Source: Oscillospiraceae bacterium
GTDB lineage: Bacteria; Bacillota; Clostridia; Oscillospirales; Ruminococcaceae
Direction of reading: 5' to 3'
Assembly (NCBI GenBank): GCA_015067025.1
Contig: SVNC01000004.1
Location: 1 to 64,000 of the forward strand
DNA length: 64,000 bases
Shown here piece by piece: positions 26,921 to 34,661 of this stretch (positions are counted from its first letter, which is position 1; each line of letters opens with the position of its first letter). The notes below the pieces were generated by a model. It did no database searches and was not told the DNA's origin. It worked only from the letters and a program-made list of their open reading frames with translations. The translations under genes and the position numbers were made by a program.

Positions 26921-28852
26921 TTAGGAAATTTTACAGCTTGAGCCGTTAAGTGTAGCACCATTTAACTTAAACTCGCCGGACGTGGTTATCTGAATTTCAA
27001 CTGTAAGAGTTCCGTTTGCATAAACGGAGTGATTCCAGTGCTTTTCTGTACAGTTGATATACGCCTTACCGCCGCTTACCGTTACATCGTCAGCACTCCA
27101 GGAGGTTATTGCTGACGCACCGGGAACGTCAAGTACAAGCTTCCAGCTATCAAAATTCTTTCCTGTGTTATTGGCAATAGTAAATTTAACCTGTGTTACC
27201 GTACTGCCGCCCGCTTGCCACGACGTACTTACCGTGTAGCTAAGCTCATAGTCTGATACCTGTGCAGGAGGCGGAGTTGTTTCTGGCTTTTTAGTTGTGG
27301 TTGTGGTTGTGGTTTCGGGCTTCTTTGTCGCAGTTGTCGTAGTTGTCGTTGTAGTCGTGGTAGTAGTTGTCGTAGTCGTTTCAGGAGCCTTTGTAGTCGT
27401 TGTAGTTTCAGGCTTCGGTGCGTCTGTTACCGTAGTCGTTGTATCAGGCACGGGAGCAGGCTTTACTGTAGACGTTGAAGAAGGTGTTTCGGGAGCAGGA
27501 GTAGAGGGATTATTTGCAGGTGTACTCGTCTGCGGCTTCTTTGTGGAAGTTGAGCTGCTCTGAGGCTTCTTTGTAGAAGTTGAACTGCTCTGGGGCTTCT
27601 TTGTGCTCGTGGAGGAGGACTGAGGTTTGCTTTCCTCATTGCCGCCCTGGTTTTCAGTTTCTTCTGACTGGGGAGGTACTTCTGTATCAGATGACTGATC
27701 ATCTGAATTTACAGGCTTATCAGAACCATCGGGCTTATCTGTCTTGCTTGTTTCGTTACCGTTTGCACCGGAGTTTTCGTTATCAGTGCTTACGTCAGAG
27801 CCTTGTGACTGGCTTACGTTACCGCCTACGGAAACATTGCCGTCATCTCTCTTATAGGTAAGCATCATAATAAGGCATACGATAAGCACGATAAGTGCCA
27901 CCGCACCTATTATTATGTAGAAGATAGCTTTTTTCTTTGAGCCGTCGTCCCCTTCAGGCACTTCGGTAAGCTCGGTTTCTTCTTCTTCCTTTTTTTCGGG
28001 AGGCTGCCAGTTTGCATAAAATAGCTTTGCTTCTTCTATAGTTCTCGGCTTTGTTATTTTAGAGATATCTCTTGGCGGTTCTGCACCCGACACGACTCCC
28101 ATAGCCGCAAAATAAGCCGCGTCATCCGTTATTATTTCGGTTGTCTTTGCTTTGTTTACTTCTTCTGTAGCGAAAGCAGCTTCCTCGGCAGGAGCAATCT
28201 CCTCGGCAGGAGCAATCTCCTCGACAGGAGCAATCTCCTCGGCAGGTGTAATCTCCTCGGCGGGTGTAATCTCCTCGGTAATTACAGGAGCTTCGCTTGG
28301 TACAGTCATAGTTTCTTCTGTAATGGGGAGAGCAATTTCATCCATTGCATCAGTAGCAGGAGCTACTGCAGACGCTGCTGTCATTGCCGCCATCTGTGCC
28401 GCTCTTATCTCTGAGGGACGCGGTTCCTGATTCAGTTCGATGCTGGGCATAGCATAATCAGAGCCATCGGGAGTAGCCTTCATAAAGTCTGTGGAATTTT
28501 CTGTAACCACAATGCTTGGCATATCTGAATTTACTTCAGCGGATATCATCATCGCTTCGTTTGTGGGCAAAGCCTCTACCGCTTCTACAATGGGTTCGCC
28601 GTCGTTTGCCGCTAAAGCTCCTGCACCAAAAAGATCTTCCATAGATGCTTCGGCAGTTTTTTCTGCTTGTTCTGCAGTTTTTTCGACAGTTTCCTTAGCT
28701 TCAGCCGCTACGTCAGCACCAAACAGCTCTTCGGGAGATAAAGTCGCTTCGGTAGTTTCTGCCGTATTAGTTATTTCCTCCGTCGCCTGAGCAGTATTTG
28801 CATCATTTTTAGGCGGCTGGTAATTGTTATTTTTATGCTTCTTTTTTGCCAT
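26921..28852 (-). CDS. single-pass membrane protein: acidic-repeat cytoplasmic region, TM, Ser/Thr/Pro linker, extracellular CBM2-like domain
   Basis: TM AIFYIIIGAVALIVLIVCLIMML; polyT linker; C-terminal YTVSTSWQAGGSTVTQVKFTIANNTGKNFDSWKLVLDV...CBM2 pattern; AAGGGG RBS before ATG 28852. Confidence 0.8.
   Translation of the reverse strand: MAKKKHKNNNYQPPKNDANTAQATEEITNTAETTEATLSPEELFGADVAAEAKETVEKTAEQAEKTAEASMEDLFGAGALAANDGEPIVEAVEALPTNEAMMISAEVNSDMPSIVVTENSTDFMKATPDGSDYAMPSIELNQEPRPSEIRAAQMAAMTAASAVAPATDAMDEIALPITEETMTVPSEAPVITEEITPAEEITPAEEIAPVEEIAPAEEIAPAEEAAFATEEVNKAKTTEIITDDAAYFAAMGVVSGAEPPRDISKITKPRTIEEAKLFYANWQPPEKKEEEETELTEVPEGDDGSKKKAIFYIIIGAVALIVLIVCLIMMLTYKRDDGNVSVGGNVSQSQGSDVSTDNENSGANGNETSKTDKPDGSDKPVNSDDQSSDTEVPPQSEETENQGGNEESKPQSSSTSTKKPQSSSTSTKKPQSSSTSTKKPQTSTPANNPSTPAPETPSSTSTVKPAPVPDTTTTVTDAPKPETTTTTKAPETTTTTTTTTTTTTTTTATKKPETTTTTTTKKPETTPPPAQVSDYELSYTVSTSWQAGGSTVTQVKFTIANNTGKNFDSWKLVLDVPGASAITSWSADDVTVSGGKAYINCTEKHWNHSVYANGTLTVEIQITTSGEFKLNGATLNGSSCKIS
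28192..28280 (-). repeat. 18-bp tandem repeat inside the CDS encoding (EEIAPA)n
   Basis: about five copies of ATCTCCTCGGCAGGAGCA with substitutions. Confidence 0.85.
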
Positions 28853-29080
28853 GGATATACCCCTTTCATAAACTTCCATATATAAATAAAGTATAGCATA
28901 AAATTTTACCCTTTTCAATTGAAAAAAGCAGAAAAAGCCGCCGGGCTTTTAAAATAATACCTTTTGCACAAATAATACATTAATTTACTGTGAGAAATAC
29001 CCATAGAATAGCGGACGTTTCAGCATCGTGAAATTTTAAATATATGCGGCAAGACTAATAAAGCAGCAGGCATGTATGTC

Positions 29081-29621: not shown

Positions 29622-31061
29622 TTATGCCTTGTCAATCTCTTCAAGAAGAATTTTTCTTAGTACCTGGGGATCGCAGTTGCCCTTTAAGGTCTTCATGCAC
29701 TTGCCGAAGAGAGCCATAAGAGCCTTTTCCTTACCGCCCTTGTAGTCTGCAACAGACTTGGGATCGGAAGCTACTATCTCCTTAATAACCTTTTCGATGT
29801 TTGCTGTATCGTTGGAAACGATAAAGTTATTTTCTACCGCATACTTTTCGGGATCAATCGTTTCTTCATCCATAACAAGAAGGATCTTCTTTGCATTACC
29901 TCTTGTTACCTTGCTTTCCATAACAAGCTTGATGAGTTTACCAAGAGCGTTACCATCAACCTTAAGCTGATCCATTGTACTGCCCTTCTTGTTGAGCATA
30001 TTCATACAATCGGAAATGAGCCAGTTAGCAACTTCCTTAGCTTCGCCGCATTCCTTGTACGCTTCTTCAAAGCAATCACAGAATGCTCTTGACTGAGTGA
30101 TAAGATCAGCGTCATATTCGGATAAACCGAGCTCGTCAATAAATCTTGCCTTTTTAACTTCAGGGAATTCAGGTAAAGATGCCTTGATGCTGTCAAACCA
30201 TTCGTCATCAATTACGATGGGCATTACGTTAGGGTCAGGGAAATAACGGTAATCGCCTGCTGTTTCCTTGCTTCTCATAGCGTAGCTCTTGCCCTTTACG
30301 TCGTCCCAACGACGTGTTTCCTGAACAAGCTCTTCCGTACCGTTTTCAAGAGCGTCAATGTGTCTTGCAACTTCATATTCAATAGCTCTTGTGATAGCGG
30401 AGATGGAGTTCATGTTCTTCATTTCGGTACGTACGCCGAGCTTTGTATCGCCCTCTTCACGAATTGAGAGGTTTACGTCGCAACGCATAGAGCCCTGCTC
30501 CATACGGCACTGGGAAACCTTTGCAAAACGCAGGAGTGAACGGAGTCTTTCAAGATAAGCTACAACCTCTTCTGCACTGGAGAAGTCAGGCTGGCTTACG
30601 ATTTCGATAAGGGGAACGCTGGTTCTGTTATAGTCAACGAGGGAGGTATCTGTCCAGTCATCGTGTACGAGCTTACCTGCGTCCTCTTCCATGTGTATCT
30701 GCTTTATTCTGATATCCTTTTCGCCCTTGGACGTCTTAATTCTTACCTTACCGTTTACACAGATGGGAGCAAACCACTGAGTTGTCTGATAAGAGCAGGG
30801 CAGGTCGGGATAGTAGTAGTTCTTCTTATCAAAGGTTGTTGTTCTGTTGATATCACAGTTTAACATCATACCTGCAGTCATACCGAGGTCTACTACCTTC
30901 TTATTTGTAACGGGTAACATACCGGGCATACCGCAACAAGCAGGACATACGTGGTCGTTCTGTTCGCCGCCGAATTCTGCGGAGCAGGAGCAGAATATCT
31001 TTGACTTGGTCGCAAGCTCGATATGAACTTCAAGACCGATGACGGTTTCGTACTTTTTCAT
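29622..31061 (-). CDS. gatB: Asp-tRNA(Asn)/Glu-tRNA(Gln) amidotransferase subunit GatB
   Basis: YETVIGLEVHIELATKSKIFCSCS, DYNRTSVPLIEIVS, C-terminal Yqey-like tail. Confidence 0.97.
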   Translation of the reverse strand: MKKYETVIGLEVHIELATKSKIFCSCSAEFGGEQNDHVCPACCGMPGMLPVTNKKVVDLGMTAGMMLNCDINRTTTFDKKNYYYPDLPCSYQTTQWFAPICVNGKVRIKTSKGEKDIRIKQIHMEEDAGKLVHDDWTDTSLVDYNRTSVPLIEIVSQPDFSSAEEVVAYLERLRSLLRFAKVSQCRMEQGSMRCDVNLSIREEGDTKLGVRTEMKNMNSISAITRAIEYEVARHIDALENGTEELVQETRRWDDVKGKSYAMRSKETAGDYRYFPDPNVMPIVIDDEWFDSIKASLPEFPEVKKARFIDELGLSEYDADLITQSRAFCDCFEEAYKECGEAKEVANWLISDCMNMLNKKGSTMDQLKVDGNALGKLIKLVMESKVTRGNAKKILLVMDEETIDPEKYAVENNFIVSNDTANIEKVIKEIVASDPKSVADYKGGKEKALMALFGKCMKTLKGNCDPQVLRKILLEEIDKA

Positions 31062-31062
31062 A

Positions 31063-32253
31063 TTACTTGCCCTCCTTTATAATCTGTACCGCATCCATAA
31101 GTGCACTGTCAGAAAATGCCTTACCGATAAGCTGAACACCGCCGCCTACCACCGCAGGAAGACCTGTGATTGTTGCAGGTGCAGTATAGAGGTTTTCATC
31201 AAAAGCGAGATACTTATTTGCATCCGTATCAGCCTTTGTGAATGTCTTCTTTGAGCTTGCAGGGAGCATTACTGCATCATATTCTGCGAATATTTCAGCA
31301 AACTTTTCTGCAATAACTCTTCTTATTCTCATAGCCTTATCGTAGAAGCTCATATAGTTATCTGTAGATAACACGTCAGATCCGTAGATTATCATTGTCT
31401 TTAAAAGCTCGCCGAAAGCTTCTGTACGGCTGTTTGTATACAGCTCTTCAATAGTTGTGTAGTTTTCGCTTCTGTAGCCGTACTTTACGCCATCAAAACG
31501 GGATACGTTGTTGCAAAGCTCTGCACTCATAAGAATGTTCCAAGCCGCCTTTGCCTTTGTCAGTATCTCATCGTCAATTTCTGCGATTTCGATACCTTTA
31601 TCGGAAAGTGCCTTCTTTGCCGCTTCAATATCAGCCTTTACTGCATCATCAGCAGAAGCTGTGATCGACTTTGCAACAGCTACCTTCTTGACTGCCTTTT
31701 CAGTAGTTAAGATCTTTTCGCACTGTGCGTCTGAAAGGCTTGTGCCGTCCTTATCGTCGTGACCTGCAATAGCAGTAAGAACCGCCTTTGCATCAGCTAC
31801 AGTCTTTGCCATAACGCCTACGGTCTCGCCTGAGCAAGCAGATGATATCGTACCGAAACGGGAAACTGTACCGTAAGTGGGCTTTACAAATACGAGATCG
31901 TTTATAGCCGCCGCTCTTCTGGGAGCACCGTTTACGTCAAAGCAAAGAACAGCCTTTGCTTCCTTTGCAATTTCTGCACTCGCACTGAGGAGTGTACCGT
32001 TGTCGTCTGTTACTGCACCCTCGTAAGAGGTTTCGCCCAGAAGATCAACTGCCATTTCGCCTACGTTTGCTTTGCCTGCTATTTCATAGCCTGCATCAGT
32101 GAGCTTTGTAACTACTTCTGCATCAAAAAGGCTCATATAGCTATCAAGCATTTTTGAGCCTGCCGTTGTAGGCATAGCCTTCGTTAAGAACATATCGTCA
32201 AGGGCAACGGCATTTGTCATATCACAGTCAGCTTTTGTTAAATATAATTTCAT
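31063..32253 (-). CDS. gatA: GatA-like subunit, short and catalytically degenerate by inspection
   Basis: operon position; FVKPTYGTVSRFGTISSACS..TVGVMAKTVADAKAVLTAIAGHD; 396 aa; missing GGSSGGS and TGGSIR motifs. Confidence 0.85.
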   Translation of the reverse strand: MKLYLTKADCDMTNAVALDDMFLTKAMPTTAGSKMLDSYMSLFDAEVVTKLTDAGYEIAGKANVGEMAVDLLGETSYEGAVTDDNGTLLSASAEIAKEAKAVLCFDVNGAPRRAAAINDLVFVKPTYGTVSRFGTISSACSGETVGVMAKTVADAKAVLTAIAGHDDKDGTSLSDAQCEKILTTEKAVKKVAVAKSITASADDAVKADIEAAKKALSDKGIEIAEIDDEILTKAKAAWNILMSAELCNNVSRFDGVKYGYRSENYTTIEELYTNSRTEAFGELLKTMIIYGSDVLSTDNYMSFYDKAMRIRRVIAEKFAEIFAEYDAVMLPASSKKTFTKADTDANKYLAFDENLYTAPATITGLPAVVGGGVQLIGKAFSDSALMDAVQIIKEGK

Positions 32254-32274: not shown

Positions 32275-32556
32275 TTATTCTACAAGTCTGGGTACCTGCC
32301 AATAGCCTTCGCTTGTGGCAGGCGCACCCTTCTGCAGATCTTCACGGGAATATATCTTCTTAGCTTCATCTTCTCTGACTACAGTCATAATAGGCATAAC
32401 GTGTACCATTCTTTCCACGTTTTCCGTATCAACTGAGTCAATAGCCTTTTTTTCTTCTAACTGCTTGTCGTAGAATTTCAGAAAAGCTTCCTTTTCCTCT
32501 TCTGTAAGAGAGAGCTGATTGAACTTTTCAAGCAGTCGTAAGGTTTCTCTTTCCAT
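32275..32556 (-). CDS. gatC: amidotransferase subunit GatC
   Basis: 93 aa; VREDEAKKIYSREDLQKGAPATSEGYWQVPRLVE. Confidence 0.88.
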   Translation of the reverse strand: MERETLRLLEKFNQLSLTEEEKEAFLKFYDKQLEEKKAIDSVDTENVERMVHVMPIMTVVREDEAKKIYSREDLQKGAPATSEGYWQVPRLVE

Positions 32557-32584: not shown

Positions 32585-34315
32585 TTAGTCTCTTACCTTG
32601 ATGTGAACTTCTCTTAACTGCTGTTCTGTTACGTCTCCGGGTGCACCCATCATTAAGTCCTGAGCGTTGCCGTTTAAGGGGAACGCGATAACGTCACGGA
32701 TCGTTTCTTCTTCAGCAATAAGCATTATCATTCTGTCAACACCGGGTGCCATACCTGCGTGAGGAGGAGCACCGAAGGAGAATGCAGTATAAAGTGCACC
32801 GAACTTTGCCTTTACGTCTTCTTCACCGTAACCTGCAATTTCAAATGCCTTCTTCATAATTTCGGGGTTGTGGTTTCTTACCGCACCTGAGGATAATTCC
32901 ACACCGTTACATACGATATCATACTGATATGCGAATATTTCAAGGGGATCCTTGTTGAGCAGTGCGTCCATACCGCCCTGAGGCATCGAGAAGGGGTTAT
33001 GTGTAAAGTCGATCTTGTTTGTTTCGCTGTTAAGCTCGTACATGGGGAAATCTACGATAAAGCAGAATTCAAACTTATCCTTGTTTATTATATCGAGTGT
33101 TTCACCAAGCCAGGTTCTGATCTCGCCTGAAAGTCTGTCAACAACAGCGGGAGCGTCACAGATGAAGAATACCGTTTCGCCGTCCTTGATGCCTGTGATG
33201 TTGATAAGCTCTGTTTTCTGCTCGTCAGATAAGAACTTTGCGATAGGTCCTTTATATTCGTTGCCGTTTAAGGTGAGGTAACCGAGGCCCTTCATGCCGA
33301 TGCTTGTAGCAAACTTTAAGCTGTCTTCAAAGAACTTCTTTGATCTGCCGGCACAATCAGCCACGATACCACGAACGGGCTTGCCCTTGAATAAGGGGAA
33401 TTCTACGTGGGAGAAGAATTCTGTAAGGTCGTTTATGATAAGAGGGTTACGAAGGTCAGGCTTATCTGTACCGTACTTAAGCATTGATTCATAATAAGGA
33501 ATACGCTTAAAGGGTGCGGGAGATATCTCCTTTGTTGTGAACTTCTTGAAGGTGTTATAGATAACCTTTTCAGCTACCTCGAATACGTCTTCCTGAGTAG
33601 CAAATGCCATTTCAAAGTCAAGCTGATAGAATTCACCGGGTGAACGGTCCTGTCTTGCGTCCTCGTCTCTGAAGCAGGGAGCGATCTGGAAGTAACGGTC
33701 AAAGCCACTTGCCATTAAAAGCTGCTTGAACTGCTGGGGTGCCTGAGGAAGTGCGTAGAACTTACCCTTGTGCTTTCTGCTGGGTACTAAATAGTCTCTT
33801 GCACCCTCGGGAGAAGAAGCTGTAAGGATAGGAGTCTGAATTTCCATAAAGCCCATTTCTTCCATCTGGCTTCTGAGATAGCTTAAAATCTTTGAGCGAA
33901 GAATGATGTTATTGTGGATCTTCTGATTTCTTAAATCGAGGAAACGGTATTTCAGTCTTAAATCCTCACGGATAGTTGTAGAAGAAGAAATATCAAAAGG
34001 CAGACCCATCTGGCAGGGGCCTAAGATCTCAAGGCTGTCAGCCTTTACTTCTACCATACCTGTTTCGATCTTTGTGTTGATTGTTTCTTCGTCTCTCTTT
34101 GTAACTTCGCCTGTTATCATGATAACAGTTTCCTTTGATACGTCCTTTAAAAGAGAGTCGTCGGAAAGTACCACTTGAGTGATACCGTAATGGTCGCGAA
34201 GATCTACGAAGATTACGCCGCCGTGGTCACGGATAGTATCTACCCAGCCTGCGATGGTAACCTTTTCGCCGATGTGGTTTAAATTAAGGTCGTTACAAGT
34301 GTGTGTTCTTAGCAT
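32585..34315 (-). CDS. aspS: aspartyl-tRNA synthetase (probably non-discriminating)
   Basis: class II motifs, bacterial GAD insertion, GMAPGVDRMIML; non-discriminating inferred from linkage to gatCAB. Confidence 0.95.
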   Translation of the reverse strand: MLRTHTCNDLNLNHIGEKVTIAGWVDTIRDHGGVIFVDLRDHYGITQVVLSDDSLLKDVSKETVIMITGEVTKRDEETINTKIETGMVEVKADSLEILGPCQMGLPFDISSSTTIREDLRLKYRFLDLRNQKIHNNIILRSKILSYLRSQMEEMGFMEIQTPILTASSPEGARDYLVPSRKHKGKFYALPQAPQQFKQLLMASGFDRYFQIAPCFRDEDARQDRSPGEFYQLDFEMAFATQEDVFEVAEKVIYNTFKKFTTKEISPAPFKRIPYYESMLKYGTDKPDLRNPLIINDLTEFFSHVEFPLFKGKPVRGIVADCAGRSKKFFEDSLKFATSIGMKGLGYLTLNGNEYKGPIAKFLSDEQKTELINITGIKDGETVFFICDAPAVVDRLSGEIRTWLGETLDIINKDKFEFCFIVDFPMYELNSETNKIDFTHNPFSMPQGGMDALLNKDPLEIFAYQYDIVCNGVELSSGAVRNHNPEIMKKAFEIAGYGEEDVKAKFGALYTAFSFGAPPHAGMAPGVDRMIMLIAEEETIRDVIAFPLNGNAQDLMMGAPGDVTEQQLREVHIKVRD

Positions 34316-34371: not shown

Positions 34372-34620
34372 ACAAAAAAGACGCCTGCCGCCCACATGGG
34401 ACGAAAGACATCTTCCGCGATACCACCCAAATTGATTGTTTCCAATCCTCTCAAAAAGTCGTTTCGTGACCTGACGTGCGGTTCTACTGACAGCTAAACT
34501 GCTTTCTTCCGCAGGCTACGGAGTGTTCTTCACTTAATATCCTGCTGTCGCACTCTCACCTACTGCGACTCTCTTTGAGCGGTGTTACAAGCTACTCTCT
34601 CCATCTACGCCAAAAATATT
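34372..34620 (-). ncRNA. T-box riboswitch leader of aspS-gatCAB
   Basis: minus strand: T-box TGGGTGGTATCGCGG (34415-34429), terminator stem 34378-34414 + TTTTTT, specifier context GAAGAACACTCCGTAG (GAAC at 34525-34528). Confidence 0.92.
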
Positions 34621-34632
34621 TATTTCGGTTAG

Positions 34633-34661
34633 AGTATATCATATTTTTTTTGATGTGTCAA
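34633..34661 (-). promoter_or_regulatory. consensus promoter for the T-box leader
   Basis: TTGACA - 17 bp - TATACT on the minus strand. Confidence 0.85.

Follow-up and report, generated by a model that had tools for sequence, protein, structure and literature searches.

The locus raises the question of what a T-box senses when its specifier reads GAAC, which offers an Asn codon (AAC) or, one base earlier, a Glu codon (GAA), when the first gene behind it is aspS, and what kind of amidotransferase it controls. We examined this in the window, the whole stretch of 64,000 nucleotides from a draft genome of an Oscillospiraceae bacterium, and in related loci and genomes. The features discussed below are collected in Table 1.

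Table 1. Positions in the window of the features of the leader and the operon
Feature	Position	Strand	Basis
Sigma-70-type promoter TTGACA-17-TATACT	34633..34661	-	direct read; consensus match only
T-box leader, Stem I to antiterminator	34394..34616	-	RF00230, 101.7 bits, full-length
Base at -1 of the specifier, a G that opens GAA in the -1 frame	34528..34528	-	varies among related leaders (A, G, U)
Specifier AAC (Asn), +0 covariance-model frame	34525..34527	-	RF00230 alignment; invariant in 12/12 aligned leaders
T-box bulge UGGU, predicted to pair with the tRNA acceptor end	34422..34425	-	direct read and RF00230; UGGU in 11/12 leaders, UGGC in 1/12
Intrinsic terminator hairpin and U6	34374..34414	-	-16.9 kcal/mol, z -4.2
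aspS, bacterial-type AspRS, RDHGG motif	32585..34315	-	TIGR00459, 621.9 bits
gatC	32275..32556	-	TIGR00135, 65.8 bits, cut-off 47.1
gatA-like gene, 396 aa, without glutaminase site	31063..32253	-	TIGR00132, 254 bits, below cut-off
Asp19 codon, at catalytic Lys (S. aureus K79)	32197..32199	-	alignment; Asp in 22/22 of clade
Ala110 codon, at nucleophile Ser (S. aureus S178)	31924..31926	-	alignment
Met287 codon, at Gln-binding Arg (S. aureus R358)	31393..31395	-	alignment
Asn354 codon, at Gln-binding Asp (S. aureus D425)	31192..31194	-	alignment
gatB, largely intact	29622..31061	-	TIGR00133, 540.4 bits, cut-off 314.8

The T-box leader and its specifier codon

The leader matched the whole of the Rfam covariance model RF00230 with a score above the gathering score of 93 (E 3e-22), which rules out a chance match and upholds its original identification as a T-box. 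AGAGAG, the distal loop, GAA-GAAC-ACUC and UGGGUGGUAUCGCGG were all found. A specifier codon within the loop of Stem I, the UGGN bulge and the terminator are each present; T-box matches in the genome of the window number 12 in total. The promoter that had been proposed could be read on the minus strand as claimed, with TTGACA at 34661-34656 and TATACT at 34638-34633 separated by a spacer of 17 bases. Concerning the terminator, a hairpin with one mismatch was recovered, and none of 200 shuffled sequences equalled its folding energy. The 18-bp helix originally described was reached only by counting outward by eye, with two pairs using the Us that adjoin the U tract; the folded piece contained 13 pairs flanking the mismatch.

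The consensus GAAauucaCC of RF00230 aligned to GAAGAACACU and placed AAC (34527-34525), directly followed by a conserved A, in the +0 frame, with GAA (34528-34526) in the -1 frame one base upstream. This agrees with the original prediction, which had read the specifier as AAC, had noted GAA by a one-base shift and had seen no Asp codon; the covariance-model placement that it had suggested as a check fell on AAC and not on GAC or GAU. Rfam placed the specifier identically in five related leaders (L048, L050, L051, L053 and L097). As there was no Asp codon at the specifier of the window leader, nor GAC or GAU there in any related leader inspected, an Asp specifier was rejected.

Twelve leaders of the window's type, from aspS loci of other species and further genomes of the same order, were then compared. 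All carry the motif GAA-N-AAC. Its AAC never changes, and neither does the GAA ahead of it, which is the conserved S-turn motif of T-boxes. N was A in seven, G in three (the window, L053 and L258) and U in two. Since N differs among the leaders while AAC is fixed, the base that alone would make the Glu codon is free to vary. A second leader type is found ahead of other related aspS operons; it has AAC throughout, with N mostly G or C and once U, and scores only 40-50 bits with RF00230, under the gathering cut-off. T-boxes of this second type (AGTAGTAAG...GGSAACACT, with a UGGC bulge) were seen upstream of aspS in L055, L062, L070, L100, L110 and L255. At L049, L054, L059 and L060, an Asn-type T-box lies upstream of aspS and gatCAB was not found alongside.

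It had been proposed that the leader senses tRNA-Asn through AAC and tRNA-Glu through GAA, and GAAC is indeed present. A two-codon T-box is described for the transamidation operon of Clostridium acetobutylicum (Saad et al. 2013, via PMC4052509 and PMC7778990). GlnRS was not found in the window's own genome, so GatCAB may also serve tRNA-Gln there. The UGGU bulge, moreover, would pair better with A73 of the tRNA-Glu of this genome than with the discriminator G73 of tRNA-Asn, which was taken from five relatives because the own assembly yielded no tRNA-Asn. However, the last U of the bulge, which forms a Watson-Crick pair with A73, can pair with G73 by wobble, which TBDB accepts, and UGGU is present in leaders with and without the Glu codon. 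Overlapping codons under common constraint, as in a two-codon T-box, were not seen, the -1 base varying among leaders in which AAC never does. Dual sensing is thus improbable, and we infer that the T-box of the window would sense uncharged tRNA-Asn, not tRNA-Glu as well.

The operon and its GatA-like protein

Behind the T-box, on the minus strand, lies aspS-gatC-gatA-gatB, as expected from the original prediction except that the third gene is a gatA-like gene without a glutaminase site, whose product we refer to as the short GatA. A second AspRS gene is present elsewhere in the genome, with RDKGG in place of the RDHGG motif of the operon AspRS. The His of RDHGG is a marker of non-discriminating enzymes. 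The operon AspRS may be such an enzyme and aspartylate tRNA-Asn; the pointers are indirect, namely this His, the operon context, the undetected AsnRS and the different motif of the second AspRS. Many related loci have aspS and gatC joined in one open frame of approximately 690-730 residues, and a fusion of the AspRS-GatC type is already represented in NCBIfam (PRK12820). The assignment of aspS to the Asn-tRNA pathway was therefore supported by its operon with gatCAB, the second AspRS gene, the failure to detect AsnRS in the own assembly and the frames shared with gatC in relatives; the fusion and the genome content fit an aspS that belongs to an Asn-dedicated system. Apparent AspRS-GatC fusions beside a GatA without its active site were seen at L061-L064, L066, L068, L070, L079, L083, L091, L100, L108 and L110. 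Downstream of gatB (26921-28918 of the window) lies a gene for a large protein whose Thr/Ser/Pro linker is highly repetitive and whose C-terminus may bind carbohydrate.

The primary structure of the short GatA was compared with those of canonical proteins. Its match to the curated equivalog TIGR00132 began at model position 63 and remained below the cut-off of 481.1 bits, while PF01425, the amidase signature family, was matched with 139.5 bits against a gathering score of 27. An AlphaFold model (pLDDT 84) superposed on the GatA chains of 4n0i, 2df4, 4wj3, 3h0l and 3al0 with Z scores of 40.8-45.7 and rmsd values of 2.6-3.0 over 380-391 residues, and the protein is predicted to keep the GatA amidase fold. 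On the other hand, the five glutaminase residues of S. aureus GatA (2df4), K79, cis-S154, S178, R358 and D425, are all absent; the loop carrying cis-Ser154 is deleted, and the others are replaced (Table 1). The matching residues of the yeast enzyme are its catalytic and Gln-binding residues (PMC4027206).

The loss extends to the clade to which the protein belongs. All 22 members have Asp at the position of the catalytic Lys, and both Gln-binding residues are gone in every one. The nucleophile position is occupied by Ala in 14, Ser in four, Thr in three and Tyr in one, and the four with Ser still have neither the Lys nor the cis-Ser loop. Canonical invariant columns are retained at 41 of 113 positions in GatA and 75 of 90 in GatB. 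Judged by these residues, the short GatA is not a glutaminase of known kind, and a published GatA lacking its active site was not found in the open-access literature searched. The invariance of the Asp means that it may have a role, possibly in a new catalytic arrangement that still hydrolyses glutamine; taking into account that the nucleophile position varies, that the cis-Ser loop is deleted and that glutamine binding has lost both its residues, we regard such an arrangement as very improbable. In GatB, the Lys of the PKGYQ motif, which presumably lines the ammonia tunnel, is replaced in every one of the 22 clade members, by Cys (Cys89 in the window), Ala, Gly or Ser.

The clade is monophyletic (SH-aLRT 100), and dN/dS for seven pairs of the gatA-like genes was 0.06-0.14, somewhat higher than for gatB and far below neutral. 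With open frames in most loci as well, a frameshift or pseudogene was rejected as the explanation for the clade. Tree and substitution rates indicate that the short GatA is an old, maintained protein under purifying selection. The gatA of the nearest relative (L048:6060-7253) contains one in-frame TAG in the K257 region, reflecting either an error or decay, and one internal stop was also observed in each of the order-wide matches G267, G159 and G139. Still shorter GatA-like proteins (about 300-410 aa) were found at L073, L086 and L093, together with short matches in G033, G034, G036, G057, G098, G121, G133 and G163; the catalytic residues are absent where they could be aligned, and these proteins form a sister or convergent group with long branches. 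At L067, a gatA-like ORF of 445 aa has Gly in place of the Lys and is missing the cis-Ser loop, with the nucleophile Ser kept. It branches outside the main clade and perhaps represents a separate loss; canonical GatA is also present in that genome.

Genome content and the source of ammonia

We then considered what else the genomes encode. In 15 of the 22 genomes carrying the short GatA, it was the sole amidase-family protein found, and in 14 of these 15 the operon GatB was the only GatB. Among the 15, AsnRS passed its cut-off in G016 and G017 only, with a weaker match in G001. The remaining seven of the 22 have canonical GatA alongside. Because most of these genomes are draft metagenome-assembled genomes, an absence in any single one is weak. 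The own genome has one amidase and one GatB, and neither AsnRS (above cut-off) nor GlnRS was found in this draft assembly, which is 98.5% complete; the tRNAs read in it included none for Asn, Ala or Ile. As AsnRS and another GatCAB were not found, its Asn-tRNA would come from the operon GatCAB or from an unknown route.

Most of the 15 genomes possess two class Ic synthetases, one of them of the GlnRS type and often adjoining gltX, and GatCAB is therefore probably needed there for Asn only. The own species may differ. Its gltX (G000:C25:1-400, L211) is separated from the end of its contig by roughly 400 bases, and a contig break was considered as the cause of the missing GlnRS. This is less likely than true absence, since the own GluRS groups with the GluRS of congeners that have no GlnRS, and the genome of one such congener is a single contig. 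For the same reason, the species may make Gln-tRNA as well through the operon GatCAB, which is uncertain as it rests on an absence in a draft. In an order-wide sample of 247 genomes, the short GatA was present in nine, while all eight of the remaining genomes sampled from the own genus carry canonical GatA, which makes it probable that the own lineage acquired the operon by transfer.

These observations can be brought together as follows. The T-box would read uncharged tRNA-Asn through its AAC specifier at the level of transcription. When Asn-tRNA is short, the empty tRNA would stabilise the antiterminator, and the four genes would be transcribed. AspRS would load Asp onto tRNA-Asn, and GatCAB would amidate the product. 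In this complex, the short GatA would most likely be a structural partner of GatB, and GatB would draw ammonia that does not originate from GatA, most simply free ammonium. We regard this overall reading, an Asn T-box governing a GatCAB whose GatA is structural and whose ammonia comes from elsewhere, as probable. Free ammonia seems the likeliest donor, and free ammonium is plausible because many of the genomes with the short GatA were sampled from the herbivore gut. Yeast GatFAB accepts NH4Cl in vitro once its glutaminase is bypassed (PMC4027206). More tentatively, a widespread lineage of gut bacteria may carry out tRNA-dependent Asn synthesis by a GatCAB with a pseudoenzyme GatA, taking nitrogen directly from ammonia, and the own species, perhaps without GlnRS, would make Gln-tRNA in this way too.

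The main alternative to free ammonium is the docking of a separate enzyme, a glutaminase or an asparaginase, on the short GatA, with glutamine as the ultimate donor. Some other amidotransferases work with separate glutaminase subunits, and conservation of the short GatA as a protein, with 41 canonical invariant columns kept, speaks for this alternative; a candidate gene is, however, absent in and beside the operon of the window, and we consider such docking unlikely. Somewhat less likely again is that the operon represents a copy which is accessory or in decay, canonical GatCAB or AsnRS having been missed in the assemblies. These are drafts, the own one without tRNA-Asn, and the congeners of the own genome have canonical GatA; in the seven relatives that carry both kinds of GatA, the complex with the short GatA may be additional to the canonical one. 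Nevertheless, the absence is repeated in fifteen genomes with concordant GatB counts in 14, the completeness of the own assembly is high, and purifying selection on the gatA-like gene argues against decay.

Comparison with known systems

AAC is the usual Asn specifier, found in 98% of the Asn T-boxes in TBDB (PMC7778990). The window leader shares all landmarks with RF00230 leaders of this specificity and shows no essential difference from them. The T-box itself is thus of a known kind, and the novelty is the GatCAB variant in the operon. As in C. acetobutylicum, a T-box precedes a transamidation operon and permits a reading of Glu and Asn codons that overlap; a difference is that the Glu frame here varies among close relatives.

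In the literature consulted, GatCAB is described as glutamine-dependent, with GatA as its glutaminase. The window system resembles bacterial GatCAB with a non-discriminating AspRS (the Asn-transamidosome, PDB 4wj3) in gene content, in its predicted GatA fold and in a largely intact GatB, and differs from it in a GatA without the glutaminase site. If our preferred reading of a structural GatA is correct, an essential step of translation has changed its nitrogen donor, the structural role of GatA is separable from its catalytic role, and the accuracy of Asn decoding is coupled to the supply of ammonia, with the T-box as a built-in readout of tRNA-Asn charging. Animal carbamoyl phosphate synthetase I retains a dead glutaminase domain and uses ammonia directly. 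It is an enzyme unrelated to GatCAB, and the likeness is one of logic: in both, an inactive glutaminase is kept, and the system of the window would likewise use ammonia.
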